From Oscillospiraceae bacterium (lineage in GTDB: Bacteria; Bacillota_A; Clostridia; Oscillospirales; Oscillospiraceae), in contig JAFQHF010000025.1 in assembly GCA_017398105.1 (NCBI GenBank), forward strand, positions 1 to 64,000: DNA of 64,000 nucleotides. The letters run 5' to 3'. A program made the position numbers and the translations under genes. Under the pieces are notes generated by a model. That model did no database searches, was not told the origin of the DNA, and worked only from the letters and a program-made list of their open reading frames with translations. Below, in pieces: positions 2 through 17,696 of this stretch. Positions within the stretch are counted from its first letter, which is position 1. Every line of letters starts with the position of its first letter.

Positions 2-442
2 ATCAATAAGCACTTACTCGATCTTACCAAGCTGGAGCGGGAAATCGAATTCGAAGAGTCTCTGAATGCCAAAAAAGCTAAGATTCAATCTGAGCAAAAA
101 GGCTATCAGGAAAAAATCGATGAGTACACAACTGCGCTGCAAACTTTATATATCGACAAATCCAAAGGCCTGATCAGCATAAGGGATTATTATGCAATGG
201 CAGAAGCATTTCAGAAAGAAAAAACTCGATTTGAGCAAATGGTCCAGGCGTGTCAGGACAAGATCGAAGATCTGGATACCAGAATCCAAATAGGGGATAA
301 CCGAACAGAGCTTTTAGCAAAATACCTCGACACGGATCACTTAACCAGAAGCATGACAGAGATCCTAATAGACCACATCGAGATAGGGAAAAGAAGCTTG
401 GAAACCGGAGATGTACCGGTTTCCATTTTTTGGAACTTTTGA
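2..442 (+). CDS. Large serine recombinase, C-terminal part (partial, cut by window edge)
   Basis: The frame is open from the window edge to a stop at 440-442, so only the last 146 residues are visible. They are Lys/Glu-rich and predicted coiled coil, ending in a motif of the kind ILIDHIEIG...VSIFWNF. This is how the C-terminal arm of Tn4451/TnpX-like large serine recombinases usually ends. The catalytic and zinc-ribbon domains would lie to the left of the window. It is a different protein from the recombinase at 1354-2880, whose tail is unrelated in sequence. It sits about 170 bp from the broken left end of the cotJC segment, which suggests it belongs to a second element inserted in that gene. 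Family assignment is by pattern only. Confidence 0.7.
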   Translation: MNKHLLDLTKLEREIEFEESLNAKKAKIQSEQKGYQEKIDEYTTALQTLYIDKSKGLISIRDYYAMAEAFQKEKTRFEQMVQACQDKIEDLDTRIQIGDNRTELLAKYLDTDHLTRSMTEILIDHIEIGKRSLETGDVPVSIFWNF

Positions 443-564: not shown

Positions 565-611
565 CGACACAAATCGACTATAATACGATGTTGTACTTAG
601 TGAAACGTAGC

Positions 612-838
612 CTCAGCCCCCAAGTCTTCCGCCAAATCTGCGATTGGATCACCCTTTACCTGCATCATACCCGTATTATATACCGCACCGGCGGCAGCTG
701 TGGGATAGACTCCGGTAGTATGATCCACAAAGTATGGCGCAAACGACGAATCCCGAATTTGGGAATCTTTTAGATTTCGTGTAAGCTGATGAACAATTGC
801 GCCAATCATTTCCAGATGCCCCAGTTCTTCTGTACCTA
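612..838 (-). pseudogene. cotJC: cotJC middle segment, split from its 5' part by a 10.6-kb element
   Basis: Read from 838 down, this stretch encodes the centre of a CotJC-type manganese catalase: GTEELGHLEM with the Glu/His metal-ligand pair, then DPIADLAEDLGAE with the next ligand Glu. There is no start codon. Upstream of 838 the homology stops at the 12-bp repeat. At 612 it stops again: after the GAG codon the frame runs into ATFH and a stop at 597, where CotJC proteins continue EQKAR. So the segment is broken on both sides. The right break is explained by the 827-11,471 element. The left break is probably a second insertion. About 50 C-terminal residues, including the last His ligand, should lie beyond the window. 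Confidence 0.85.
827..838. repeat. Left attachment core (12-bp direct repeat)
   Basis: CTTCTGTACCTA, identical to 11,460-11,471 and in the same orientation. On the minus strand it reads through codons TA-GGT-ACA-GAA-G of cotJC. The flanking bases differ between the two copies, so 12 bp is the exact identity. It marks the left end of the intervening element. Confidence 0.85.
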
Positions 839-841
839 CAA

Positions 842-1081
842 ATGGTTCAAAATGGAACCCGAAACAAACAATGCCTGAACTACAGGGAAGCCCGATCGCC
901 GACCTGGGGAGAAGATCCGAATGTTCCGATTCTGCTCTCCATGAACCTGAGCTCAAGTGGACTGAATCATTGAGAGGACATTGTGGAGCAACGAATATAC
1001 GACCGGATTCTGGAGCTGTGTGTGCCTGTGTGCTTCGACGGACAAATCCCACGGCAGGAGAAAACAAAACATATTGATTAA
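842..1081 (+). pseudogene. Short gene remnant at the left element end, in-frame stop
   Basis: The frame from ATG 842 reads protein-like sequence (YREARSPTWGEDPNVPILLS) to a TGA at 971-973. It then continues in the same frame as EDIVEQRIYDRILELCVPV to a TAA at 1079-1081. The residue composition looks coding on both sides of the TGA, which suggests a gene broken by one nonsense change. The frame is also open leftward through the 12-bp core, so its real 5' end may lie at the other end of the element (see 11,379-11,480). I do not recognise the family. Confidence 0.35.
844..859. repeat. Left inner attachment arm
   Basis: GGTTCAAAATGGAACC is itself a palindrome (GGTTC/GAACC). Its reverse complement closely matches the right inner arm at 11,445-11,459. 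In the excised circle the two arms would flank the 12-bp core, which is the usual geometry of a serine-integrase attP. Confidence 0.55.
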
Positions 1082-1111
1082 AAACCCATATGTTCAGACC
1101 GTGAATGTCTC

Positions 1112-1121
1112 TGCATAGATT
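1112..1121 (+). promoter_or_regulatory. Possible sigma-E-type -10 of the recombinase operon
   Basis: TGCATAGATT lies 23 bp before the start at 1145. CATAGATT matches the sporulation sigma-E -10 consensus (CATACA-A/T-T) at 7 of 8 positions. The same 10-mer occurs upstream of the cotJ operon (12,147-12,156, minus). No convincing -35 is visible here, so this is a suggestion only. Confidence 0.35.
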
Positions 1122-1144
1122 TGCATAGGAAGGAGGGCATCAGG

Positions 1145-1357
1145 ATGGCGAGAATATTCGCAAAGCTACAGCGTATCGAACATAACGAACCGATTACAAT
1201 GGAAAAGAACTATGAATTTCTCTATCAGCTGCAGCACGCCCTGCTGCTGGCCCTACGGGAGCAGGGAAGACTCAGCCCTATGCAGCACCGTCATGCAGAA
1301 GAGTGCTTGAGGAAGCAGCGCAGGGAGAGGGCCAGGCGGAAACGGGAGGAACCATGA
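1145..1357 (+). CDS. Small basic protein preceding the recombinase
   Basis: 70 residues from ATG 1145, which follows a strong GGAAGGAGG. An in-frame ATG at 1121 lacks a ribosome-binding site. The protein begins MARIFAKLQRIEHNEPITME and ends in a highly Arg/Lys-rich tail (LRKQRRERARRKREEP). Its stop overlaps the recombinase start in an ATGA arrangement, so the two are translationally coupled. Small basic proteins in this position are common in clostridial serine-recombinase elements. It could be a DNA-binding accessory or directionality factor, but nothing in the sequence proves that. Confidence 0.75.
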   Translation: MARIFAKLQRIEHNEPITMEKNYEFLYQLQHALLLALREQGRLSPMQHRHAEECLRKQRRERARRKREEP

Positions 1358-2880
1358 TCAAAGTAGTCAGCTATTGCCGGGTGTCCACAGATAAGGATGA
1401 CCAGACCAATTCCTTTGAAAACCAGAAGGCCTATTTCCAGGAGTACATTCAGCGAAATCCCGACTGGGAACTTTACGAAATTTATGCCGATGAGGGCATT
1501 ACCGGAACCAGCACAAAAAAGAGGAAAGCGTTCAACCGGATGATGAACGATGCCTATGAAGGTAAGTTTCAAATGATCATCACCAAGGAGGTCAGTCGTT
1601 TTTCCCGAAACATCCTGGATACCATCTCCTACACCCGTGAGCTGCGGTCCATGGGCATCGGAGTCATCTTCGCAACAGACCGGATCAATACGTTGGAGCC
1701 GGAAGCTGAAATGATTCTTTCCTACATTGCCGCCCAGTCCCAGGAGGAAAGCCGCCGGATCTCCGCCCGTGTGGTCTGGGGACAAACCCGGCAGATGGAG
1801 AAGGGCGTGGTGTTCGGTCAATCCCTCCTGGGTTACGATGTAAAGTCTGGGCGGATCACAGTCAATCCAGAGGGAGCTGAGATTGTCCGGCAGATCTTTC
1901 ACAAATACGCCGTAGAGCAGGCGGGAACTTCTGAAATCGCCCGGTATTTGACCAATGAGGGCTACCGGACCTATCGCGGCAGCACAAAATGGAAGCCGTG
2001 TACCATCATTAAGATTCTAAAAAACGAAAAGTATGTAGGGGATCTGGTACAAAAGAAAACCTACACCCCGGACTATTTATCCCACGAAAAGAAATCCAAC
2101 AAAGGCGCAGTACCACTGATCTCGATTGCCAACCATCATGAACCGATTATCAGCCGGGAAGTATGGAACCTTGCCCAAGAGCGGCTTCGGCTGAATAACA
2201 AGCGCGCAGAAGGGGAGAGAGGCCACTCCAATCGTTATGTGTTCTCCGGTAAAATCAAATGCGGCCAGTGCGGCAGCACCTTTGTGGGGCGCTTTAAGTA
2301 TCGGAAGGACGGAACCAGAATCCGCCGCTGGAGCTGCGGTACAGCCGCCACTGAGGGCACAGCAGGCTGCGATATAGGCAGGCTCATCCGGGATGATGAT
2401 GCCATGCAGATGCTGAAAGCTGCCATTCAAGCCCTTCCCATGGACTTCGATGCCGTGATTCGCAATGTGACGGAGCTTGCCCTGAAAGCAATTCTGATAG
2501 GCCAGACAGCCGCCTGGGACGATCCCGGCCGGCTCTGGCAGGATTTGAAGCGGGTACAGCAGAAAAAAGAAGCGGTAATGGACGGCTATTTTTCCGGGGA
2601 AATCTCTAAAGAGGATATGATTTTCTTCACTTCCAGATATGGCCGTAAACTGTCCGATCTTCAAAAACGGCTGGAAGAAGCACAAAAACAAAAGGACAGC
2701 AAACAGGATTCTACTACACTGAGGGAACAGATTCATTCGGAAGTCTCCGCAATTACGAAGGGAGAAACCGAGAGTGAGGTCTTTTGCAAAACATTGCTTC
2801 AAAGTCTCACCGTATTCAAGGATCGCCACATGGAGCTACGGATGAACCAGCTTCCACAGGTGTTTCATTTTTCTGGATAA
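1354..2880 (+). CDS. Serine site-specific recombinase of the cotJC element
   Basis: 508 residues from ATG 1354 (GGGAGGA upstream, ATGA overlap with the small gene before it). The resolvase/invertase catalytic domain opens with VVSYCRVSTDKDDQ, where the Ser is the nucleophile; conserved Arg motifs SRFSRN and EESRRIS follow. Next come the recombinase domain (about residues 150-260), a zinc-ribbon (CGQCGSTF ... WSCG ... GC) and a coiled-coil arm. Size and domain order match SpoIVCA-type recombinases that cut out the sigK element in bacilli and clostridia. It lies at one end of the 10.6-kb element, near the attachment core. It is therefore the likely excisionase/integrase for the cotJC break. Confidence 0.95.
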   Translation: MIKVVSYCRVSTDKDDQTNSFENQKAYFQEYIQRNPDWELYEIYADEGITGTSTKKRKAFNRMMNDAYEGKFQMIITKEVSRFSRNILDTISYTRELRSMGIGVIFATDRINTLEPEAEMILSYIAAQSQEESRRISARVVWGQTRQMEKGVVFGQSLLGYDVKSGRITVNPEGAEIVRQIFHKYAVEQAGTSEIARYLTNEGYRTYRGSTKWKPCTIIKILKNEKYVGDLVQKKTYTPDYLSHEKKSNKGAVPLISIANHHEPIISREVWNLAQERLRLNNKRAEGERGHSNRYVFSGKIKCGQCGSTFVGRFKYRKDGTRIRRWSCGTAATEGTAGCDIGRLIRDDDAMQMLKAAIQALPMDFDAVIRNVTELALKAILIGQTAAWDDPGRLWQDLKRVQQKKEAVMDGYFSGEISKEDMIFFTSRYGRKLSDLQKRLEEAQKQKDSKQDSTTLREQIHSEVSAITKGETESEVFCKTLLQSLTVFKDRHMELRMNQLPQVFHFSG

Positions 2881-2885
2881 TTACT

Positions 2886-2915
2886 CCGTCCCACTTGCGT
2901 TGGGACGGCATTTTC
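2886..2915 (+). terminator. Terminator after the recombinase
   Basis: CCGTCCCA (2886-2893) pairs with TGGGACGG (2901-2908), followed by CATTTTCTG. It separates the recombinase operon from the hydrolase gene. Confidence 0.7.
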
Positions 2916-2989
2916 TGTTGATGAATGGGGTTTCTTATGATAAATTATAGATGATACTCAGACTGACAAAATGAAGGAAATCAAAAACT

Positions 2990-3907
2990 ATGAAAACTGA
3001 AACATTTCTTTTTTCTGGATACAACGACAAAACGCTTCCCGCCATGCTGTGGCAGCCGGAAGGGGAGACGAAAGCCCTTCTTCAAATCACCCACGGCATG
3101 ACAGAGCATATTGGCCGTTATGAAGCCTTAGCCCGGAAAATGACTGCTCAGGGTATTGCCGTAGCAGGCTTTGATCTTCGAGGCCACGGCAGGAACTCTG
3201 GAGACAAGGAAGTTGCCTCTTTCGGAAAAGGTGGTTGGGAAGCCACTATTGGCGATATGAAGCGTTTCTACGATCTGCTGGAAGAACGATTCCCCGGTGT
3301 GCCTCATTACCTCCATGGCTTTTCTCTGGGTTCCTTCCTACTGCGGGAATATCTGGGCTATTACCCGGAAGACGGTGCCGGAGCAGTAATCCTAGGCACC
3401 GGCAATCAGCCAGCATGGTTACTGTCCATAATGATGGGAATTGTAAAAGGCCAGATCAAAAAGGCAGGCTTCGATGGCTACAGCCCCCTGGTGCGGCAGC
3501 TGTCTTTTGGCACCTACAATCAGAAATTTAAACCCCATCGTACGCAGAAGGACTGGCTCTGCTCAGACAACGAAACCATCGATGAATTCATTGCCGATCC
3601 CCTGTGCCGGGAGAATTTTTCCACCGGACTGTTTTATCAGATGCTCTCAGCCATGAAGCGCACCGGAGGAAACGATATATACGATACATGGGATAAGGAA
3701 AAGCCCATTCTGCTGATCTGCGGAGAAAAAGATCCTGTGGGCAATATGGGCAAGGGTGCAAAATCCGTGATGCAGGCCATGAAGCAGGCCGGACTGGATG
3801 TGACATTCCATCTACTGTCCGGTTCCCGGCACATGATTCTGGGCGAACAGTCAAGCGGCGCTGCCGATACAGCTGTGAAGATCATTCAGGAATGGATTTT
3901 GAGGTGA
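2990..3907 (+). CDS. Alpha/beta hydrolase, lysophospholipase / monoacylglycerol-lipase-like
   Basis: 305 residues with the Hydrolase_4 (serine aminopeptidase S33) pattern. Features in order: THGMTEHIGRY near residue 35 (oxyanion region), FDLRGHG, the nucleophile elbow HGFSLGS near residue 105, an acidic residue in GEKDPVGN, and a terminal His in SRHMIL. No signal peptide, so probably a cytosolic lipase or esterase; the substrate cannot be told. It starts a run of closely packed plus-strand genes (2990-6756) inside the cotJC element. The next gene starts 5 bp after its stop. Confidence 0.9.
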   Translation: MKTETFLFSGYNDKTLPAMLWQPEGETKALLQITHGMTEHIGRYEALARKMTAQGIAVAGFDLRGHGRNSGDKEVASFGKGGWEATIGDMKRFYDLLEERFPGVPHYLHGFSLGSFLLREYLGYYPEDGAGAVILGTGNQPAWLLSIMMGIVKGQIKKAGFDGYSPLVRQLSFGTYNQKFKPHRTQKDWLCSDNETIDEFIADPLCRENFSTGLFYQMLSAMKRTGGNDIYDTWDKEKPILLICGEKDPVGNMGKGAKSVMQAMKQAGLDVTFHLLSGSRHMILGEQSSGAADTAVKIIQEWILR

Positions 3908-3912
3908 AAAAC

Positions 3913-4326
3913 ATGAAGAGAAAGCCGAATGTTGCCTTTATCTGCGTCCATAACTCCTGCCGCAGCCAGATGGCAGAGGCCCTGGGCAAAAAGCTCTGCG
4001 GCGATACTTTTGAAAGCTATTCTGCCGGTACAGAAACCAAGCCGCTGATCAACCAGGATGCAGTCCGGCTGATGAAACAGGTATATGGCATAGATATGGA
4101 GAAAGAACAGTACAGCAAGCTCCTGTCCGAGCTCCCTGAGATCGACATCGTCATCACCATGGGCTGCAATGTCCAATGTCCCTTCCTGCCCTGCAAATAC
4201 CGGGAGGATTGGGAACTGGATGATCCCAGTGGAAAAGAGGATGAAGCGTTCCTCTGCACCATGCAGCGCATCGAAGAAAAGGTACTGGGTCTGAATCAAC
4301 GCATTGTGTCCGGAGGTCTGCTATGA
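3913..4326 (+). CDS. Arsenate reductase / low-molecular-weight phosphatase family protein
   Basis: 137 residues from ATG 3913, chosen because GAGGTG lies 7 bp before it; an in-frame ATG at 3892 overlaps the previous gene and has no ribosome-binding site. The P-loop CVHNSCRSQ (CX5R) stands at the N terminus. Two further Cys lie in MGCNVQCPFLPC, followed by DDPSG with the catalytic Asp. This three-Cys layout is that of thioredoxin-coupled ArsC rather than of simple tyrosine phosphatases. No ArsR, ArsB or Acr3 gene is adjacent, so an arsenic role is not supported by context. A redox or phosphatase role is possible. Confidence 0.8.
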   Translation: MKRKPNVAFICVHNSCRSQMAEALGKKLCGDTFESYSAGTETKPLINQDAVRLMKQVYGIDMEKEQYSKLLSELPEIDIVITMGCNVQCPFLPCKYREDWELDDPSGKEDEAFLCTMQRIEEKVLGLNQRIVSGGLL

Positions 4327-4859
4327 AGATCATCTGCTTTGGCGACTCCAATACCTACGGCTACGATCCCAGAGGATATTTTGGCGGGCGGTATGACCGT
4401 CCCTGGCCGGATATTTTGTCGGAGAAACCGGGGTGTACCGCCCTGAATTGGGGCGAGAATGGTCGGGAGATTCCTACAGGAGCCATTGATTTTCCGTATG
4501 ATACAGATCTTCTGATCATCATGCTGGGCACCAATGATCTGCTGCAATCCTGGTCTCCGGAAGCTGCCTGCGTGAAAATGGAGCGTTTTCTGAAATCGCT
4601 TACAATAGATCAGAATAAGATTCTTCTGATTGCCCCGCCGCCTATGAAATTGGGCGAATGGGTGCAGGATCAGGTTCTGATAGATGATTCCATCACTTTT
4701 GCAAAATACTGTAAAGCCCTTGCAGAGCGCCTGGGCATCCGTTTTGCGGATGCAGGGGACTGGAATACCCCGCTTGCCTATGACGGCGTACACCTGACCG
4801 AGGAGGGCCACAGAGCCTTCGCTCAAGGACTGATAGAATACTTACACAAAGGAGAATGA
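4323..4859 (+). CDS. SGNH/GDSL-family hydrolase
   Basis: 178 residues with the SGNH blocks in order: FGDSNTYG (nucleophile Ser) at the N terminus, LGTNDLL (block III, Asn) mid-protein, and DGVHLTEEGH near the C terminus with the catalytic Asp and His. There is no signal peptide, so it is cytosolic. Members of this family are esterases or acyl hydrolases, and the substrate is not predictable. The start overlaps the previous stop by 4 bp (ATGA), so it is translationally coupled to the ArsC-like gene. Confidence 0.85.
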   Translation: MKIICFGDSNTYGYDPRGYFGGRYDRPWPDILSEKPGCTALNWGENGREIPTGAIDFPYDTDLLIIMLGTNDLLQSWSPEAACVKMERFLKSLTIDQNKILLIAPPPMKLGEWVQDQVLIDDSITFAKYCKALAERLGIRFADAGDWNTPLAYDGVHLTEEGHRAFAQGLIEYLHKGE

Positions 4860-4862
4860 ACT

Positions 4863-5321
4863 ATGCTGGAAAACGGTATAAAAGCGCCTGATTTTACCAT
4901 GAACGACAAGGACGGCAATTCTGTCAGTCTGTCTGACTTCCTGGGAAAGAAAGTAGTACTTTATTTCTACCCCAAGGACAACACCCCCGGCTGCACCCGG
5001 CAGGCCTGCGCCTTTGCCGCTGCTTATGAGGGTTTCAAAGCAAAAGATGTAGTAGTAATCGGCATCAGCAAGGACAGTGTAGCCTCCCACCAGAAATTTT
5101 CCCAGAAGTATGATCTGCCCTTCATTCTGCTGTCCGACCCGGAATTAAAGGTAATTCAGGCCTACGGTGTCTGGCAGGAGAAGAAACTCTATGGCAAGGT
5201 GAGCATGGGCGTGGTGCGGACTACATACATCATCGATGAGCAGGGAAACATCGAAAAGGTCATGCCCAAAGTTAAGCCCGATACCAATGCAGCGGAAATC
5301 CTTGCTTATCTTGAGGAGTAA
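4863..5321 (+). CDS. bcp: Thioredoxin-dependent thiol peroxidase (Bcp/PrxQ)
   Basis: 152 residues, the usual Bcp length. The peroxidatic Cys lies in YPKDNTPGCT and a second Cys follows five residues later (GCTRQAC), as in the atypical two-Cys Bcp class that uses an intramolecular disulphide. It reduces hydrogen peroxide and organic peroxides with thioredoxin. It starts 3 bp after the SGNH gene and ends 3 bp before yaaA, so it shares their operon. Together with yaaA and the manganese catalase it gives the element a peroxide-defence theme. Confidence 0.93.
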   Translation: MLENGIKAPDFTMNDKDGNSVSLSDFLGKKVVLYFYPKDNTPGCTRQACAFAAAYEGFKAKDVVVIGISKDSVASHQKFSQKYDLPFILLSDPELKVIQAYGVWQEKKLYGKVSMGVVRTTYIIDEQGNIEKVMPKVKPDTNAAEILAYLEE

Positions 5322-5324
5322 GGT

Positions 5325-6080
5325 ATGCGGATCATCATTTCTCCTGCAAAGAAAATGAAGGTGGATACGGATAGCTTACCCTGCCAGGAGCTTCCTGTAT
5401 TTCTGCACAGAACTGAGAAACTTTGCAGAACTTTACAGTCCATGTCCAATGCAGAGTTACAGAAGCTTTGGAAGTGCAACGATCAGATTGCAGCACTTAA
5501 TATCCATCGTCTTCAGAACATGGACCTATATAACCATCTGACCCCAGCAGTGCTGGCTTATGAGGGCATTCAATACCAGTACATGGCGCCCGGCGTTTTT
5601 TCGCAGCAGGCGTTAAATTACATCCAGGAGCATCTTCGAATCCTTTCCGGCTTTTACGGTATCCTGAAACCCTTTGACGGTGTGACCCCCTATCGGCTGG
5701 AAATGCAGGCAAAGCTCAGGGCAGGGGAGTGCAAAGACCTGTACGCCTACTGGAGCAACAGCCTTGCCAGTTCTCTCTTTGCTGAAACAAACTGTATCGT
5801 GAATCTGGCTTCCAAGGAGTACAGTGTATGTGTTTCCAAATATTTGCCTGCAAACGTGCGCTTCATTACCTGCGTTTTCGGCGAGGAAAAGGACGGTAAG
5901 GTGATTGAAAAGGGTACCATGTGCAAGATGGCCCGGGGTGAGATGGTGCGTTTTATGGCGGAAAAACAGATCACAGACCCGGAGCAGATCAAGACCTTTG
6001 ACCGACTGAACTACCGTTTTGATTCCACTCATTCCGACGATAAATTGTTCGTATTTATCACTAAAGCAATCGGAGGTTGA
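5325..6080 (+). CDS. yaaA: Peroxide stress protein YaaA (UPF0246)
   Basis: 251 residues, full length for YaaA/DUF328, starting MRIIISPAKKMK, the family hallmark, and carrying YRLEMQAKL in the middle. In E. coli YaaA limits free iron and Fenton damage during peroxide stress and binds DNA; the exact activity is unsettled. It follows bcp by 3 bp, and that pairing supports an oxidative-stress role. The next gene begins 1 bp after the stop and uses the GGAGG inside the yaaA end. Confidence 0.93.
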   Translation: MRIIISPAKKMKVDTDSLPCQELPVFLHRTEKLCRTLQSMSNAELQKLWKCNDQIAALNIHRLQNMDLYNHLTPAVLAYEGIQYQYMAPGVFSQQALNYIQEHLRILSGFYGILKPFDGVTPYRLEMQAKLRAGECKDLYAYWSNSLASSLFAETNCIVNLASKEYSVCVSKYLPANVRFITCVFGEEKDGKVIEKGTMCKMARGEMVRFMAEKQITDPEQIKTFDRLNYRFDSTHSDDKLFVFITKAIGG

Positions 6081-6081
6081 C

Positions 6082-6756
6082 ATGATTCCTTGTGTTTCTG
6101 TTGAAAATATGCGGCTAAGCGACGCCTACACCATCGCTAATTTCGTGCCGAGCCTGGAGCTTATGTACCGGGCAGCAATGAGCGTTTTCATGGCACATCA
6201 TTGGCAGGGCAGTACCGCCATCGTGGTAGGTTCCGGTAACAATGGCGGTGACGGCTTTGCCCTGGCCTGGATTCTGAAGAAAAAAGGCTTCGACTGCACC
6301 GTGTTCACTGTCAGCCAGCATCTGTCCGACGACAGTGCCTATTATGCGACCAAGGCAAACGAAGCAAAGGTTTCCGTTATTCTTTTTGAAAAGAACTGCC
6401 TGCAAGGCTTCGATACAGTTGTTGATTGTCTGCTGGGCACCGGTTTTTCCGGTACCGTCCGGAGCAATTATCGGGATGCCATCGAAGCCATCAATAAATC
6501 CGGAGCATACGTCATCAGCGTGGACATAAACAGCGGTATGAACGGTGATACAGGTGAGGCCGAGATTGCCGTTCAATCTGATCTGACAGTAACAATCGGC
6601 TTCGTCAAGACCGGACTGGTTACGGAAAATGCGGGTAAGTGCATGAAAAAGCTGATCTGCGCTGATATTGGCATCAAACTTGTTCGGAAAGAAGGAACCA
6701 TCACAAAAGAAAACTGCCCACCCTGGCTGGATATGGAAATCATCAGATTGATTTGA
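6082..6756 (+). CDS. nnrE: NAD(P)H-hydrate epimerase, stand-alone YjeF N-domain
   Basis: 224 residues from ATG 6082 (CGGAGG 7 bp upstream). An ATG at 6019 inside yaaA is rejected. The YjeF_N core is clear: VVGSGNNGGDGFALA, then VVDCLLGTGFSG and VISVDINSGMNGDTG. The enzyme interconverts R- and S-NAD(P)HX, damaged cofactors, so that the dehydratase can repair them. In most bacteria it is fused to the ADP-dependent dehydratase; here that domain is absent and no separate copy is in the window. It is the last gene of the 2990-6756 run. Confidence 0.85.
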   Translation: MIPCVSVENMRLSDAYTIANFVPSLELMYRAAMSVFMAHHWQGSTAIVVGSGNNGGDGFALAWILKKKGFDCTVFTVSQHLSDDSAYYATKANEAKVSVILFEKNCLQGFDTVVDCLLGTGFSGTVRSNYRDAIEAINKSGAYVISVDINSGMNGDTGEAEIAVQSDLTVTIGFVKTGLVTENAGKCMKKLICADIGIKLVRKEGTITKENCPPWLDMEIIRLI

Positions 6757-6767
6757 CCGCTACAAAA

Positions 6768-6795
6768 CAGACCGCCGAATTTGGCGGTCTGTCTT
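6768..6795. terminator. Bidirectional terminator between nnrE and glgB
   Basis: CAGACCGCC (6768-6776) pairs with GGCGGTCTG (6783-6791). TCTTG follows on the plus side and TTTTG on the minus side. It serves the converging nnrE and glgB transcripts. Confidence 0.8.
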
Positions 6796-6805
6796 GCATC
6801 CTGGT

Positions 6806-8554
6806 TTATTTCACAGCATAGAGGACACCACAGTAGGGAGGAAGCTGTTTTTCAATGGATTTCTTCATGGAACGGCGCGTATTTCCGCCAAAGACTTCCC
6901 AGTCGGTATGCAGGAGCATTGTTGCACTGCCATCCACTTCCGGTACAATGGCCGATTCCTTGTCAGAGAAGTTGAACAGCACCAGTATGGTCTGCTTTCC
7001 ATCGGTGCGGATATAGCCAAATACACACTTGTTATCGCACTTACAATCTACCCACTTGAAACCGTCATAGGTATGATCCAGCGCCCAGATTGGTTTCTTT
7101 TTCAGGTACAGGCGATTCAGTTCTCCAATGTATCGATGGAAGGAATCATGGGCAGGCAGTTTCAGCAAGTCCCAGTCTGATTCCCGTCGTTCGTCCCACT
7201 CCCGGAACATCGCAAGTTCGTTCCCCATGAAGTTCAGCTTCTTGCCGGGATGGGTCATCATGTACAGGTACAGAAGCCTCGCCTGGGCAAACTTCTGCTT
7301 ATAGCTTCCGTGTAACTTTTCGATTATGGTCTTCTTGCCGTGAACCACTTCATCGTGGGAAAAGGGGAGAATGTAACGCTCGTTGTAGGCGTAGTAAATG
7401 GAGAAGGTGATTTTCTCCGGCATATTGCCCCGGTCGTAAGGATGACACGCAAAGTATTTCAGAGTGTCATGCATCCAGCCCAGGTCCCACTTGTAATCAA
7501 ACCCCAGGCCACCTTCTTCTACATCTTTGGTTACACCGGGGTAGGCGGTGGAATCCTCCGCAATCAGCATGGCGGTGGGATGGAGCCGGTGCAGACCCTG
7601 ATTCATAACCTTAATGAAATTGAGAGTGACACCATTTTCGCCACGCTTTTCATCTCCCTGCCAATAGATCAGTCGGCTGACTGCATCCATCCGCAGACCG
7701 TCAAAATGATATTCTTTCAGCCAGTAGTTGGCAGCGGATTGCAGAAAGCAGGCTACCTCCCGACGGGAGTGGATGAAATTATAGCTGCCCCATTCACTTT
7801 CACCCACATCCTTATGGAGGTATTCATAGAGGGCTGTACCGTCATATTCCTTCAACCCGTAGGCATCCACTGCAAAATGAACGGGAACAAAGTCCATGAT
7901 AGAACCGATCCCTGCATTATGGAGTTTGTCAATCAGTTCCATCAGCTGAGCTGCTGTGCCATACCGGGAGGTAGGAGCATAAAAGCCCGTGTTCTGATAT
8001 CCCCAGCTTCCGTCAAAGGGATGTTCCGAAAGAGGCAGGAACTCCACATAGTTGTAGCCGTACGCCTTGAGATACGCAATGAGTTCGTCCGCAATCTCAT
8101 TGTAGGTATACCACTCGCCATCCTTCTTTTTCCAGGAACCCAGATGCAGCTCATAGATGTTCAGGGGCTTGTCATAGCACCGGGTACGCTTCTTCATCCA
8201 TGTTTCATCGGTAAACTTGTATGCAGACAAATCCCGGATGATAGAACAGGCACCGGGGCGCAGTTCCATACCAAAGCCATAGGGGTCACAATGCTCCACC
8301 CGGCCATTCTGACCGTAAATCACATATTTGTACATTTGCCCCGGTTGGGCATCTTTGGAAAAGCCCACCCAGACACCGCTCTGATGAAGCTGCTGCAAGG
8401 GTACTTCTTTCCAACCATTAAATTCTCCCACCACATTGATGCCCCAGGCATTGGGAGCGTATGTGCGGAATACCACACCGCCGTCTTCCAGATGCGCTCC
8501 GAAGTATTCGTAAGCATCAAAGCTTTCTCCCATGTAGAATTTTTGCAGATTCAT
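6806..8554 (-). CDS. glgB: 1,4-alpha-glucan branching enzyme GlgB
   Basis: 582 residues, shorter than the common 630-740, so it has only one N-terminal carbohydrate-binding beta-sandwich (GEFNGW motif) before the GH13 barrel. Catalytic motifs: DGLRMDAV (nucleophile Asp), AEDST (acid Glu) and FSHDEVVHGK (third Asp). The start has AGGAGGTCATT ahead. The enzyme makes alpha-1,6 branches in glycogen. No other glycogen gene is in the window; it is a lone gene in the cotJC element, divergent from a TetR regulator with a palindromic site between them. Confidence 0.93.
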   Translation of the reverse strand: MNLQKFYMGESFDAYEYFGAHLEDGGVVFRTYAPNAWGINVVGEFNGWKEVPLQQLHQSGVWVGFSKDAQPGQMYKYVIYGQNGRVEHCDPYGFGMELRPGACSIIRDLSAYKFTDETWMKKRTRCYDKPLNIYELHLGSWKKKDGEWYTYNEIADELIAYLKAYGYNYVEFLPLSEHPFDGSWGYQNTGFYAPTSRYGTAAQLMELIDKLHNAGIGSIMDFVPVHFAVDAYGLKEYDGTALYEYLHKDVGESEWGSYNFIHSRREVACFLQSAANYWLKEYHFDGLRMDAVSRLIYWQGDEKRGENGVTLNFIKVMNQGLHRLHPTAMLIAEDSTAYPGVTKDVEEGGLGFDYKWDLGWMHDTLKYFACHPYDRGNMPEKITFSIYYAYNERYILPFSHDEVVHGKKTIIEKLHGSYKQKFAQARLLYLYMMTHPGKKLNFMGNELAMFREWDERRESDWDLLKLPAHDSFHRYIGELNRLYLKKKPIWALDHTYDGFKWVDCKCDNKCVFGYIRTDGKQTILVLFNFSDKESAIVPEVDGSATMLLHTDWEVFGGNTRRSMKKSIEKQLPPYCGVLYAVK

Positions 8555-8584
8555 AATGACCTCCTTGCGTGATACACTTGTGTC

Positions 8585-8622
8585 GATTTCTTCTTTGTGC
8601 TATCATAGCATAAGAAGAAATC
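8585..8622. promoter_or_regulatory. Nested palindrome between glgB and the TetR gene (probable operator)
   Basis: Outer arms GATTTCTTCTT (8585-8595) and AAGAAGAAATC (8612-8622) match perfectly, and an inner palindrome TGCTATCATAGCA sits at 8598-8610. It covers the glgB -10 region and lies 58 bp before the TetR start, a position fitting autoregulation and repression of glgB. Binding is inferred. Confidence 0.6.
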
Positions 8623-8631
8623 CGGTTGCAA
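8602..8631 (-). promoter_or_regulatory. glgB promoter
   Basis: On the minus strand TTGCAA (8626-8631), an 18-bp spacer and TATGAT (8602-8607) form a fair vegetative promoter. The -10 is inside the palindrome at 8585-8622. Confidence 0.5.
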
Positions 8632-8679
8632 TAGCTCTGCCGCAACTGACACGCTGGGAAAGAAAGTGGGTCTTTTTTT

Positions 8680-9222
8680 ATGTATCACAAGCAGGCAAAC
8701 AAGACGGCCATCCAGAGCCAGCACATGATCACAGATGCTCTGTTCAGCCTTATGAAGCGCAAGCCCTTTCAGCAGATCACTGTCACGGAAATCTGTGAGG
8801 AAGCCGCCGTGGGCCGTAAGACCTTTTACCGTAACTTTGAACTTCGGGAGGATGTGATCGACTTCTGGCTGGATTTACGGTGTGAGGAATGCCGGGAGGT
8901 GCTGCTTCCGGTTCCCTTGGAAGAACAGCTTTACCATTACTGCATCTTTCTAAAAAAACATATGGATGTGCTGATCGTGCTCTACCAAAATGGTCTGCAT
9001 CCCATGGTGGGGAAGAAATTCTCCGTTTTTATGCCATACACTATGCCCCTGTGGTCACAAGATCCGGTGGAGCAGGAGTACCGCAGCCAGTATATTATTG
9101 CAGGCATTGATGCCATCATCCGTGTCTGGGTGACTCGTGGATTTCAGGAAAGTGTTGAAGAGATTGCAGAAATCGTCAAACGGGCCCAGGATCGGCAAAT
9201 TCCCATGCATACTTCAGTTTAA
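8680..9222 (+). CDS. TetR/AcrR-family transcriptional regulator
   Basis: 180 residues. The N-terminal TetR helix-turn-helix is clear: ITDALFSLMKRKPFQQITV, then TEICEEAAVGRKTFYRNFE. The C-terminal half is helical and unlike any class I can name, so the ligand is unknown. It is divergent from glgB across a palindrome and 38 bp upstream of the manganese catalase gene, so it may control either or both. A weak ribosome-binding site precedes ATG 8680. Confidence 0.88.
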   Translation: MYHKQANKTAIQSQHMITDALFSLMKRKPFQQITVTEICEEAAVGRKTFYRNFELREDVIDFWLDLRCEECREVLLPVPLEEQLYHYCIFLKKHMDVLIVLYQNGLHPMVGKKFSVFMPYTMPLWSQDPVEQEYRSQYIIAGIDAIIRVWVTRGFQESVEEIAEIVKRAQDRQIPMHTSV

Positions 9223-9260
9223 ATTGGAAAAACTATACTACGAAAGTGAGGTTTTTTCCA

Positions 9261-9929
9261 ATGTTCAAACACGAAAAGCTGTTATTTCACCCGGTGGAAG
9301 TGGAACGTCCCAACCCCCAGTATGCAGCGCTGCTGCAGGAACAGCTGGGCGGTGCCAACGGCGAACTGAAAGCGGCCATGCAGTATATGTCACAGAGTTT
9401 CCGGATCAAAGACCCGGAGATCAAGGATCTCTTTCTGGACATCGCCGCCGAGGAGCTGAGCCACATGGAAATGGTAGCCCAGACTATCAACCTTCTAAAC
9501 GGGCACGATGTGGATGCCGCCACTGTTCCTGCCGGTGAAATTCAGACCCATGTACTGATGGGCCTGAACCCGGGGCTGATCAACGCATCCGGCTATTCCT
9601 GGACCGGGGACTATGTGACCGTCACCGGGGATCTTTGTGCCGACCTGCTCAGCAATATCGCTTCTGAGCAGCGGGCTAAGGTTGTTTATGAATACCTGTA
9701 CCGTCAGATTGATGACAAGAAAGTAAAGCAGACCATCGACTTCCTTCTGAACCGGGAGGAGGCCCACAACGCCATGTTCCGGGAGGCCTTCAACAAGGTG
9801 CAAAACACCGGCTCCAACCGGGATTTCGGCACCACCAAGGCAGCAAAGATGTATTTCAGCCTCTCTGAGCCGTCGCCCAAAGAGTCTCCCTTTCCCAATG
9901 CAAAGGTGAATCCGCCTTCTTTCAACTAA
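9261..9929 (+). CDS. Manganese catalase, complete CotJC paralogue inside the element
   Basis: 222 residues from ATG 9261 (GTGAGG 9 bp upstream; a GTG at 9246 is that ribosome-binding site). It keeps all dimanganese ligands of the family: Glu in NGELKAAMQY, Glu/His in AAEELSHMEM, Glu in ASEQRAK and His in NREEAHNAMF. It should dismutate hydrogen peroxide. It is a diverged relative of the split cotJC but intact, and it is carried within the very element that breaks cotJC. It follows the TetR gene by 38 bp. The C terminus (SEPSPKESPFPNAKVNPPSF) is Pro-rich and likely extended. Confidence 0.92.
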   Translation: MFKHEKLLFHPVEVERPNPQYAALLQEQLGGANGELKAAMQYMSQSFRIKDPEIKDLFLDIAAEELSHMEMVAQTINLLNGHDVDAATVPAGEIQTHVLMGLNPGLINASGYSWTGDYVTVTGDLCADLLSNIASEQRAKVVYEYLYRQIDDKKVKQTIDFLLNREEAHNAMFREAFNKVQNTGSNRDFGTTKAAKMYFSLSEPSPKESPFPNAKVNPPSFN

Positions 9930-9935
9930 GAATAC

Positions 9936-9963
9936 GAGCCGCCCAACCTGGGCGGCTCTGTTT
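9936..9963. terminator. Bidirectional terminator, Mn catalase / MATE
   Basis: GAGCCGCCC (9936-9944) pairs with GGGCGGCTC (9950-9958), followed by TGTTTG. It lies between converging genes. Confidence 0.8.
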
Positions 9964-9965
9964 GT

Positions 9966-11309
9966 TTATCGGGATATTCGTTTCAGCATAACGAAATAGC
10001 TTGGCACCAGGATCAGATCGGCACCGAACCATGCCAGGACTTCGGCAATGAAGATGCCGTTTTCACCCGTAAGGGCAGGAAGGAGCAGGACACCACCGGT
10101 ACGCATGATGAACTCCGCAATACCCGATACCATGGGAAGCACCGTATTTCCCATACCCTGAACTGCCGAACGGGTCACATGGAGGATATAGAGGATGGGC
10201 AGGCAGATGCTCATAATGGACAGGTATGTCACGCCTACCTTTAATGCTGCAGCAGCTTCCTCCGGCGTACCGGAAATGAATGCACCCACAATGCGCTGTC
10301 CGAAAACCAGCATCACGGCCGCAATGACAGCAGAGGTTGCCAAAGCCACAGTAATGGCCCATTTCATGCCGGTTCTGATCCGATCAATCTTGGATGCGCC
10401 CAGATTCTGGCCCACATAGGTGATCATGGCGTAGCCATAGGAGGTTGCGGCAATTTCCAGCACACCATAGAGCTTGTTTGCCGCCGTAAAGCCACCGATG
10501 AAGGCCACACCGTATCCATTGACAACGCCTTGGATAATCATACCACCCACGGCAATGATTGCATTCTGGGCTGCCATGGGAGAACCCAGGGACAAAAGCC
10601 GTCCGGCCATGGCAGGTTTCAGGGAGAAATGGGATTTACGAAGCGTCAGGAATTCGATTTTTTTGATCTTCAGCAGGCAGTAGATACTGGAAATACCCTG
10701 AGCAATCAATGTAGCAATGGCTGCACCTGCAATGCCCCAGCGGAACACCAGCACGAACAACAGATCCAGAACGATATTGGAGATCGCTGCCACAATCATG
10801 GCATACAAAGGCGTCTGGCCGTCACCAAGAGAACGCAGGATGGTGGCCAGCAGATTATAGACCATGACGATCGGAATGCCCAGAAACATGATCCGCAAGT
10901 ACAACAGGGAACTGCCCATAATCTCCGGTGGTGTATTCAACAGGACGAGAACCGGCTCCGCCACGGCCTGTCCCAGGATCAGAAACAGCAAGGCAGACAG
11001 TACCGACAGGGAAGTGGAGCTGCCCACCACACTGCGCAGGCTTTCAAACTGCTTGGCACCGAATTCCCGGGCCATCATGATTCCGAATCCCTGGGTCACA
11101 CCCTGGATCATACCCAGGAGCAGCCAATACAGCCAGTCGGTGGCTCCCAGTGCCGCCAGAGCATCCACACCCAGGGCTTTGCCTACCACCATGGTATCCA
11201 CCACAGTGTATAATTGTTGGAAAATATTGCCCACCATCAGTGGCAAGGCGAAGGAAACGATCAGCGGCAACGGCTTTCCGGTGGTCATATCTTTGATTTT
11301 GGCACTCAT
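9966..11309 (-). CDS. MATE-family efflux transporter
   Basis: 447 residues and about twelve hydrophobic segments. The N terminus reads MSAKIKDMTTGKPLPLIVSF and continues PLMVGNIFQQLYTVVDTMVVG, the typical start of the clostridial NorM/DinF-like MATE group, with the two-fold MatE repeat. It exports cationic compounds in exchange for sodium ions or protons; the substrate is unknown. It is the last full gene of the element, reading away from the right attachment core. Start ATG 11309 has a weak GAGGTATCTTT upstream. Confidence 0.92.
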   Translation of the reverse strand: MSAKIKDMTTGKPLPLIVSFALPLMVGNIFQQLYTVVDTMVVGKALGVDALAALGATDWLYWLLLGMIQGVTQGFGIMMAREFGAKQFESLRSVVGSSTSLSVLSALLFLILGQAVAEPVLVLLNTPPEIMGSSLLYLRIMFLGIPIVMVYNLLATILRSLGDGQTPLYAMIVAAISNIVLDLLFVLVFRWGIAGAAIATLIAQGISSIYCLLKIKKIEFLTLRKSHFSLKPAMAGRLLSLGSPMAAQNAIIAVGGMIIQGVVNGYGVAFIGGFTAANKLYGVLEIAATSYGYAMITYVGQNLGASKIDRIRTGMKWAITVALATSAVIAAVMLVFGQRIVGAFISGTPEEAAAALKVGVTYLSIMSICLPILYILHVTRSAVQGMGNTVLPMVSGIAEFIMRTGGVLLLPALTGENGIFIAEVLAWFGADLILVPSYFVMLKRISR

Positions 11310-11444
11310 AAAGATACCTCACATATATGTTAACTTTTAATATCTTATCATATCCGACATTGCTTTTCAATGCATTGAAATTTTCGTTCTGTTCAGGCCT
11401 GCATCGGCGATCTGTCCGACAGGGAAGTGGATGAAATGGTGCGC

Positions 11445-11459
11445 GGTGTCATTTTGACC
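11445..11459. repeat. Right inner attachment arm
   Basis: GGTGTCATTTTGACC directly abuts the core. Its reverse complement GGTCAAAATGACACC is close to the left arm GGTTCAAAATGGAACC (844-859). Confidence 0.55.
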
Positions 11460-11471
11460 CTTCTGTACCTA
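11460..11471. repeat. Right attachment core (12-bp direct repeat)
   Basis: CTTCTGTACCTA, identical to 827-838. To its right the sequence is cotJC coding DNA. To its left cotJC homology stops and the minus-strand frame ends three codons later (GSK, stop at 11,449-11,451). Confidence 0.85.
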
Positions 11472-11658
11472 TATCAGTGAGCAAACCTTTCAGCTCATCA
11501 AATGGCATGGAGTACCGTTGAGACAAATAGCGAAGGGACGCTCCCAATTCCCCGTCCGGCCCGCCATATTGTGAAATGATAATTGACGCGAGCCTTGGGT
11601 TCGGCTTACTGATTTTTACCGGATATTGCAATTTTTTATCGTAAATAAACATACTCAC
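11460..11658 (-). pseudogene. cotJC: cotJC 5' segment, interrupted at codon 66
   Basis: Start ATG 11658 overlaps the cotJAB stop (11,655) by 4 bp. The 66 native residues are very typical CotJC: MFIYDKKLQYPV, then ISQYGGPDGELGASLRYLSQ with the first Glu metal ligand, and LTDIGTE. They end at the insertion point, after which the frame runs GSK-stop. Joined through the repeat to 838-612 the protein continues ELGHLEMIG in frame. CotJC is an inner-coat manganese catalase of spores, normally near 190 residues. In the arrangement shown here only a dead 69-residue stub can be made. Confidence 0.9.
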
Positions 11659-12101
11659 CCCTCCTTATTGGCACAAAATTCCCAAGGCCATGGATCATCC
11701 AGCCAATCATAACACTCCCGCTCAGAAGCCTTCATATGATTCAGAGGTCCATGATTTCGTTTGTATTCGTCTACGCAATGCCCATACAGCTTTTGATAAT
11801 TACGGTACAGTGCCAACGCTTCCTGATCCTCACGATGCGTATCCAGATAAAGCGCCAGTTCCTGTATTGCAAAATTAAGCGCCTGCAGCTCTGTCATTGG
11901 CGTGACTGGTTTTTCCTTTTGATTGACCATCCCCATGAACGGGAGATCCAGTCCCGGAAACAAGGTTCCGCGCACCATGCCCTTACGAGCCTCATACCTG
12001 GGCGGGTTCTCCAGCTGAAAAGGAACATAAGCATTGGCCAAAGGTCCCATCGCAGGAAGTCGCCCTTCACGGCCAGATTCCGCCGTATTTTTCCTGGTCA
12101 A
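11655..12101 (-). CDS. CotJA-CotJB fused spore coat protein
   Basis: 148 residues. Residues about 20-60 match CotJA (LANAYVPFQ ... GTLFPGLDLPF). Residues about 70-145 match CotJB (LNFAIQELALYLDTHREDQE ... GPLNHMKA ... DDPWPWE). In B. subtilis these are two genes, cotJA and cotJB. Here one open frame covers both, joined by a linker around NQKEKPVTPM. The start is TTG 12101, eight bases after AAGGAGG; no in-frame ATG fits. It is followed by cotJC with a 4-bp overlap, so the cotJ operon order is kept. CotJ proteins assemble together in the spore coat. Confidence 0.88.
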   Translation of the reverse strand: MTRKNTAESGREGRLPAMGPLANAYVPFQLENPPRYEARKGMVRGTLFPGLDLPFMGMVNQKEKPVTPMTELQALNFAIQELALYLDTHREDQEALALYRNYQKLYGHCVDEYKRNHGPLNHMKASERECYDWLDDPWPWEFCANKEG

Positions 12102-12146
12102 AAGTCATTCCTCCTTATTTTTCAGTCAGAACTGTCGTTCCATGTC

Positions 12147-12156
12147 AATCTATGCA
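12147..12156 (-). promoter_or_regulatory. Possible sigma-E -10 of the cotJ operon
   Basis: On the minus strand TGCATAGATT lies 46 bp before the cotJAB start. CATAGATT fits the sigma-E -10 at 7 of 8 positions, and GAACTTT lies 14 bp further up (5 of 7 to the -35). The cotJ operon of B. subtilis is sigma-E dependent. The same 10-mer precedes the element's recombinase operon. Confidence 0.5.
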
Positions 12157-12192
12157 TCCATCTCTCGAAAAGTTCAAAAATGGCAGCCTCAC

Positions 12193-16724: not shown

Positions 16725-17696
16725 ATGAGCGTTAAACGAATTGGCGTACTTACCAGCGGCGGCGATGCTCCCGGCATGAATCCCTGTGTTCGCGCAGTTG
16801 TCCGTACTGCTCTCTACCATGGTTTGGAATGCTACGGCATTCGGCGTGGCTGGAACGGTCTGATCACCGGAGATATTGTGAAGCTGGATGAAAAGAGTGT
16901 TTCCCATACTATCAACCGCGGCGGTACAATTCTCTACACTGCCCGCAGTAAGGAATTCATGACCGAAGAAGGTCAGCGCCGTGCCGTTTCCACCTGCAAA
17001 TTTCTCGGTCTGGACAGCATCATTGCAATTGGCGGTGACGGCACGTTCCGTGGTGCCCGGGCTCTGAGCAAGTATGGCATTAACGTCATCGGTATCCCCG
17101 GTACCATTGATAACGATATCAGCTGTACACACTACTGTATCGGATTTGATACCGCTGCCAATACTGCAATCGAATGTATTGATAAACTCAGAGATACTAT
17201 GCAGTCCCATGAACGCTGTTCTGTTGTTGAGGTTATGGGACGCAATGCTGGCTATCTTGCCATGTACGTTGGTCTTGCCGTCGGCGCAACTGCCGTTTTG
17301 GTCCCTGAAAAAGAAATCAACTTTGAAGTAGACGTCATTGAAAAAATCCGTCAGGCTCGTCTTAATGGCTTTACGCATTACATGATCGTTGTTGCTGAGG
17401 GCGCAGGCTCTGCAGCAGATATTGCAGCCAAGATCAAAGATGCCACCGATCTTGATCCTCGCGTGACCGTTCTTGGTCACATCCAGCGCGGTGGCACTCC
17501 CACCGGACGTGACCGTGTAAACGCTACAAAAATGGGTTATCTGGCCGTGGAACTCCTACTGCAGGGCAAAAACAACCGCATTGTATGTACACATGACGGT
17601 GGATATACGGATGTGGATATCGATGAAGCCCTGTCTATGAATAAAAGCATTCAGCAAATGGAAGTGAATGTTCTTGCTGCAATGACCGGAATTTAA
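16725..17696 (+). CDS. pfkA: 6-phosphofructokinase
   Basis: 323 residues from ATG 16725, eight bases after TTGGAGG. ATP-dependent PfkA signature: GVLTSGGDAPGMN, IAIGGDGTFRGA, PGTIDNDI (catalytic Asp) and GHIQRGGTPTGRDR. It phosphorylates fructose-6-phosphate, the committed step of glycolysis. It is monocistronic, with its own promoter and terminator, between the two tyrosine recombinase genes. Confidence 0.97.
   Translation: MSVKRIGVLTSGGDAPGMNPCVRAVVRTALYHGLECYGIRRGWNGLITGDIVKLDEKSVSHTINRGGTILYTARSKEFMTEEGQRRAVSTCKFLGLDSIIAIGGDGTFRGARALSKYGINVIGIPGTIDNDISCTHYCIGFDTAANTAIECIDKLRDTMQSHERCSVVEVMGRNAGYLAMYVGLAVGATAVLVPEKEINFEVDVIEKIRQARLNGFTHYMIVVAEGAGSAADIAAKIKDATDLDPRVTVLGHIQRGGTPTGRDRVNATKMGYLAVELLLQGKNNRIVCTHDGGYTDVDIDEALSMNKSIQQMEVNVLAAMTGI

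Follow-up and report, generated by a model that had tools for sequence, protein, structure and literature searches.

The window analyzed here, 64,000 nucleotides of the genome of an Oscillospiraceae bacterium (GenBank assembly GCA_017398105.1, contig JAFQHF010000025.1, positions 1 to 64,000), contains cotJC, the gene for a spore-coat manganese (Mn) catalase, in separate pieces. A 10.6-kilobase (kb) element carrying a large serine recombinase is inserted at codon 64/65 (break site A), and a second element is likely present after codon 136 (break site B); we consider it probable (roughly 0.7) that both are excised in the sporulating mother cell. In roughly one in three of the related species examined, cotJC is likewise interrupted, at the same small set of points. 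This reading draws on several features of the DNA sequence. At site A, the two flanking pieces share one frame and a core in register, the element arms resemble those of relatives, and a recombinase gene is accompanied by a small open reading frame (ORF); at site B, the break is accompanied by the tail of a site-B-type recombinase. Both breaks recur in relatives, and the pieces of the relatives are under purifying selection.

Two breaks in the cotJC gene of the window

The site-A break is delimited by the following features; residues are numbered as in the intact gene of relative L024.

11461..11658, minus strand: cotJC piece 1, residues 1-64, with its ATG at 11652
612..827, minus strand: cotJC piece 2, residues 65-136, 81% identical to L024 residues 65-136
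11460..11471, plus strand: site-A core CTTCTGTACCTA, copy adjoining piece 1, in register with the other copy
827..838, plus strand: site-A core CTTCTGTACCTA, copy adjoining piece 2
11444..11459, plus strand: element arm adjoining piece 1, GGGTCAAAATGACACC on the coding strand
839..856, plus strand: element arm adjoining piece 2, CATTTTGAACC..TGTAG on the coding strand
839..11460, no strand: site-A element minus core copies, delimited by the core, the rejoined frame and the junction comparison
1354..2880, plus strand: large serine recombinase of the site-A1 lineage, 508 amino acids (aa), with Resolvase, Recombinase and zinc-ribbon domains (Pfam)
1145..1357, plus strand: 70-aa ORF directly upstream of the recombinase, a candidate directionality factor

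Both pieces match the Pfam family Mn_catalase (PF05067) on the minus strand, window 11449-11658 covering profile positions 1-65 (E 1.4e-20) and window 597-842 covering positions 62-151 (E 1e-11), and piece 1 is 94% identical to L024 residues 1-64. The exact core CTTCTGTACCTA occurs twice in the whole 64 kb (827-838 and 11460-11471), the copies being 10,633 base pairs (bp) apart. With up to one mismatch allowed there are three matches against 0.12 expected, a number reached in none of 100 shuffles; the third, one-mismatch copy is inverted (7265-7276, minus strand), lies within a glgB-like gene and could be a chance occurrence. Fused at the core, pieces 1 and 2 read ...LTDIGTEELGHLEM... with no insertion or deletion, as do intact relatives. 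The arm adjoining piece 1 shows few changes among the site-A elements of relatives in the junction table, and the arm adjoining piece 2 is a rough inverted repeat of it.

A preliminary description of this DNA had proposed that a serine-recombinase element of 10,633 bp, with its recombinase at one end, splits cotJC, and that the pieces share a 12-bp sequence at which they rejoin without gain or loss of a base. All of these points are borne out, and the uninterrupted gene, for which it had suggested a search, is present in relatives at about 198 residues, reading as the rejoined pieces do. The recombinase clusters with six other site-A recombinases in the tree described below. Counterparts of the 70-aa ORF (37-54% identical) lie beside related recombinases in L003, L045, L049, L004, G331, G075 and G007, and the ORF has no match in Pfam or NCBIfam.

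The further claim that excision of the 10.6-kb element yields CotJC does not hold. The rejoined frame ends ...GDPIADLAEDLGAEATFH*, with a stop four codons past residue 136, whereas intact relatives run on as ...AEQKARVTYDN... to the full length. Removal of the site-A element alone would give no CotJC: a second break follows codon 136, and residues 137-198 are outside the window. Two features mark this second break.

586..611, minus strand: site-B junction; the 26 bases that follow codon 136 agree at 24 positions with the corresponding bases of L028
2..442, plus strand: C-terminal part of a second serine recombinase that begins outside the window, likely part of a site-B element

Over 146 aa, the recombinase tail shares 76% identity with the site-B recombinase found in L028; its match to DUF4368 is weak and falls under that model's cut-off. 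Given these L028-like bases and this L028-like recombinase tail, the window cotJC very likely consists of three pieces, of which the third lies beyond the window, and the second break is likely due to a second element of the same sort. In the genome of L028, the missing C-terminal cotJC piece is found about 46 kb off, on what its length of 97,000 bases marks as apparently the same contig. A tandem pair of site-B-lineage recombinase genes (L028 11011-14289) adjoins the cotJC junction of that relative.

Recurrence of the breaks, recombinase lineages and selection

The break first described in this window is found again, with related recombinases, in many relatives. Among 49 named loci found through cotJAB, cotJC is broken at a fixed site in 21, with L005 kept apart as unclear. 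Both ends are seen at site A in nine loci (window included) and at site B in ten, with one codon boundary per site. The C-terminal 62 residues were found, free of stops, in 19 of the 22 genomes searched, G003 having only the first 44 of the 62. These 19 genomes with a split cotJC carry sporulation markers, Spo0A_C being above its cut-off in 18 and SpoIVA in all 19; in the window itself are genes resembling CwlD, YqfD and YlbJ, all scoring below the respective NCBIfam cut-offs.

A wider sample comprised 300 genomes from the family to which relative G002 belongs; Oscillospiraceae is the label of most named relatives. A search with full-length CotJC gave a match in 235, of which 130 were full-length and 105 were searched again. 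Piece ends at the fixed sites were found in 94 of these 105; the others, not counted as split, were six full-length genomes, four with a distant paralogue only, and G300. Among the 231 cotJC-bearing genomes, both flanks of at least one break are seen in 72 and one flank in 22 more (including G280, a mixture of two organisms), giving a broken share of 31-41% (72 to 94 of 231). The control gene coaD was partial in 2 of the 129 genomes with a match. Judged by piece ends, 23 of the 94 genomes (G280 included) are broken at two or more sites, and both flanks are seen at two sites in 12 of the 72; L040 has three breaks in cotJC, with a recombinase beside the first two. Neighboring pieces on the same contig are collinear in 47 of 48 pairs (one extra G027 row was left out), with gaps of 1.9 to 42.6 kb.

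Piece ends cluster at codons 29-34 (site 0), 61-66 (site A), 133-137 (site B) and 175-179 (site D), the last piece at site D being short and its matches weak (E about 1e-3 to 1e-10). In an alignment with solved Mn catalases, site 0 lies beside E35, site A at E65/H68, site B at E136 and site D a few codons after H169. These five residues are conserved in the Mn catalase alignment and are presumably metal ligands, as in other Mn catalases. Because the break sites fall at or near these positions, the integrases seem to have settled on the least variable codons of cotJC. The longest shared run is in register at 23 of 37 two-flank junctions (31 shifts tried per junction; 3 of 40 junctions gave no usable pair). 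The joins are free of stops at 26 of the 37, and in our reading the stops in the other 11 stem from second breaks or a misplaced join. By hand alignment, the shared sequence is GGTACNGAR at site A and, at most site-B ends, GCAGCAGA.

The recombinases sort by break site. In a tree of 41 of 52 rows (left out were five duplicate loci, the L046 and window 2-442 fragments, L050, and two L160 rows and one L040 ORF without a clear site), the recombinases of sites 0 (18 rows), B (11 rows) and D (2 rows) each form one group with support of 98/98 to 100/100, and those of site A fall into two groups of separate origin, the first comprising 7 rows including the window's and the second the rows of L040, L124 and L125. 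The site labels require three changes on the tree, which is the minimum, against a shuffled mean of 19.6, and none of 200 shuffles was as low. Deeper joins are not trustworthy because long branches meet between some groups.

In relatives, cotJC pieces 2 and 3 are under purifying selection. Within one genus, the median ratio of nonsynonymous to synonymous divergence (dN/dS) of piece 3 is 0.039 where the gene is split (17 genomes, 70 of 136 pairs usable) and 0.079 where it is intact (12 genomes, 51 of 66 pairs usable); for piece 2 the corresponding medians are 0.115 (16 genomes, 69 of 120 pairs) and 0.146 (66 of 66 pairs), and both pieces are stop-free. Family-wide, the gene is stop-free in 38 split and 52 intact loci, the split set counting one genome three times and holding a small number of loci truncated where a contig ends, G300 and G280 among them.

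Element genes, cotJ neighborhood and promoter scans

The rest of the element and the region upstream of cotJC comprise the following.

2990..11309, no strand: other element genes, assigned by profile matches: alpha/beta hydrolase, ArsC-like phosphatase, GDSL lipase, peroxiredoxin, YaaA, NAD(P)H-hydrate epimerase, GlgB, TetR, second Mn catalase (9261-9929) and MATE
11655..12101, minus strand: cotJA-cotJB as one ORF (PF11007 and PF12652), with cotJC behind on the same strand
12130..12180, minus strand: cotJ promoter-like block (GAACTTTTCGAGAGATGGATGCATAGATTG), the best matrix match of the window (score 20.6, the block itself having been among the training sites)

No phage structural or replication genes were found among the twelve element ORFs scanned with Pfam; the recombinase had a single distant match in IMG/VR, and defence-system models run on five proteins gave GlgB as the sole resemblance. 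The preliminary description had spoken of non-phage cargo, a term that calls for caution, as six of the genes may not be cargo at all. In L015, genes for MATE, epimerase, YaaA, peroxiredoxin, GDSL lipase and ArsC-like phosphatase follow an intact cotJC directly and in unchanged order (1263-6210), 69-89% identical to their window counterparts, which weakens the view of the inner genes as foreign; they may be native neighbors of cotJC that were captured by the element. Peroxiredoxin and/or YaaA genes lie beside piece 2 inside the element in 6 of 19 annotated site-A elements (window 4863-6080, G007, G331, G332, G328 and G224) and after an intact cotJC in G321, G268, G333, G347 and G109. Loci at which these genes recur beside cotJC, either inside site-A elements or downstream of the intact gene, include L208-L213 and L215. 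Site-A elements can be much smaller, as in G120, where a 54-aa ORF and the recombinase are joined by one 432-aa ORF that looks like a pyrimidine-nucleoside phosphorylase.

The Mn catalase at 9261-9929 is intact within the very element that splits cotJC, is 33% identical to the joined CotJC pieces, and may compensate for the split gene. In the IMG/VR contig L161, cotJC piece 2 lies between a phage-like gene and a site-B end, of which the first gene is a Mn catalase (L161 3339-3974) 92% identical to that at window 9261-9929. Relatives' matches to the fused cotJA-cotJB ORF cover most of its length.

The conserved cotJ block, about TGAAC-N14-GGCATAGWATG, was found in 28 of 50 cotJ upstream regions and is of a kind we take to be recognized by mother-cell sigma factors. 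A second match of the cotJ-type matrix, at 17180-17230 on the minus strand of the window, scores 19.1, close to the cotJ promoter's own. Over whole elements, the cotJ-trained matrix gave nothing beyond shuffled maxima except single cases. The start of the ORF at 1145 ranked second of 267 gene starts in 13 elements; this candidate was not counted because its -10 region overlaps the ribosome site, because its score was 11.3 against 27.5 for true cotJ promoters, and because the matrix missed three of five cotJ controls. Scans with sigma-factor consensuses gave little or no excess upstream of the recombinases or of cotJ itself.

Competing explanations and relation to known elements

The main rival to sporulation-controlled excision is a plain integration hotspot, in which cotJC-specific integrases enter a dispensable, highly conserved gene, excision is rare and independent of sporulation, and the intact look of the pieces reflects young insertions that turn over. 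Several observations weigh against our reading, and some of them favor this one. The site-B recombinases of G020 and G021 are 97% identical over 398 aa, although their cotJC genes are near a synonymous divergence (dS) of 1.5 or saturated, which implies transfer between hosts, and such mobility may mean that the insertions are recent. In one genus, cotJC is intact in 12 of 37 cotJC-bearing genomes. The consensus and matrix scans gave no convincing sporulation promoter on the recombinase operon. As to the excised circle, the strict window-type site-A attP pattern occurs in 0 of 400 genomes and the exact pattern has 0 occurrences in IMG/VR, assemblies being a poor place to see such circles. No genome has coexisting split and intact cotJC; two candidates were rejected, G280 as a mixture of two organisms (80% identical in the overlap) and G300 as a 127-bp contig overlap of an intact gene. 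In G165, the last cotJC piece is inverted, so that the pieces could not be joined by excision alone (contig C1, 71980-129879: pieces 1-33 and 27-137 on the minus strand, piece 132-197 on the plus strand). Family-wide, median dN/dS is slightly higher in split (0.177, 65 of 703 pairs) than in intact loci (0.127, 149 of 1,326 pairs), a difference absent in the matched genus. A gene that is dead while split would be expected to decay, yet the split pieces are stop-free, and the constraint on piece 3 is at least as strong as in intact genes of that genus. The frequency of breaks, and the several breaks within one gene, also speak against a mere hotspot, which we regard as unlikely on balance while ranking it ahead of the other alternatives.

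The remaining two explanations are much less probable. That the 10.6-kb segment is native chromosome moved into cotJC by rearrangement fits the six-gene run of L015 and the peroxiredoxin and/or YaaA genes after intact cotJC in five more genomes, but unrelated site-A elements have the same core and arms at both ends, and a site-A-lineage recombinase lies at one of them. At most the inner genes would be native and taken up, and we consider displacement of the whole segment very improbable. An assembly or binning artefact is suggested by the reliance on metagenome assemblies for most relatives, by the 22 of 94 genomes with one flank only, and by the mixed G280; it is contradicted by piece ends that recur at no more than four codon positions and are accompanied by site-specific recombinases, by breaks inside a 2.19-Mb contig (G120:C1) and by the coaD control, and we give it hardly any credence.

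Excision during sporulation also has precedents, compared here with the cotJC elements on the basis of parts of the cited papers. The gin element in gerE of Bacillus cereus ATCC10987 (28.6 kb, three recombinase genes, no phage structural or replication genes) is likewise a non-phage serine-recombinase element that splits a mother-cell sporulation gene, has a short shared repeat and restores the gene on rejoining; it differs in gene and phylum branch, in making a single break, and in its size and three recombinase genes (PMC5595907). Excision of gin in sporulation has been demonstrated (PMC5595907), whereas that of the cotJC element is predicted from sequence. The skin element in sigK of Bacillus subtilis and Clostridioides difficile also combines a serine recombinase, a mother-cell gene, an expected precise excision and a small directionality factor, for which the 70-aa ORF is a candidate counterpart, but it is prophage-like and, in the parts of the literature considered, occurs as one element per gene (PMC5025042). 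The resemblance to such rearrangements seen in the preliminary description is upheld. SPbeta in spsM, vfbin in spoVFB and yin in yabG also interrupt sporulation genes and are excised by a site-specific recombinase; unlike the cotJC elements they are prophages or prophage-like and lie in other genes, and the parts of these reports considered describe no splitting of the targets at several fixed sites by several lineages (PMC4191935, PMC10747680, PMC6957869). In Clostridioides difficile R20291, the mobile DNA of phi027 adjoins a CotJC-like Mn catalase gene, CDR20291_1465, but this gene lies downstream of attR and is not called interrupted or reconstituted in the relevant part of that paper (PMC11222575). 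The targets of sporulation gene rearrangement named in the portions of the literature covered are sigK, spsM, spoVFB, gerE and yabG, as single cases, and no report of cotJC as a split, rejoined gene was recognized in open-licence PMC literature, a scope that does not extend to bioRxiv. We read the cotJC elements as sporulation gene-intervening elements akin to skin and gin, with a new target gene and up to three breaks per gene.

If the cotJC elements work as gin and skin do, recombination of the two half-sites would be carried out in the mother cell by the recombinase together with its small partner. The recombinase would act at the element ends described above, the 70-aa ORF would set the direction of recombination, and excision would be timed by sporulation. 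With piece 3 presumably to the left of the window, both elements would have to leave before full CotJC is made; the mother cell would make the protein and die, while the forespore chromosome would keep the integrated elements. Extended to the family, this would make cotJC a gene in pieces spliced at the DNA level, cut, up to three times in one gene, by at least five recombinase lineages that use its metal-ligand codons as private attachment sites, and reassembled in the mother cell by successive excisions while the germ line stays broken, a generalization for which we see about even odds.

Spore formers with such a gene could make the protein only after cutting the elements out, and gene finders would likely call the split cotJC truncated or miss its pieces. 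The breaks also provide integrases of about five lineages together with the attachment sites that match them. The family is known chiefly through metagenome assemblies; its cotJC, broken at four fixed codon positions and in some cases at two or three of them simultaneously, supplies many natural replicates with which to ask what leads mobile DNA to settle in mother-cell genes, whether its excision is something the hosts rely on, and what governs order and direction where one gene is shared by several elements.

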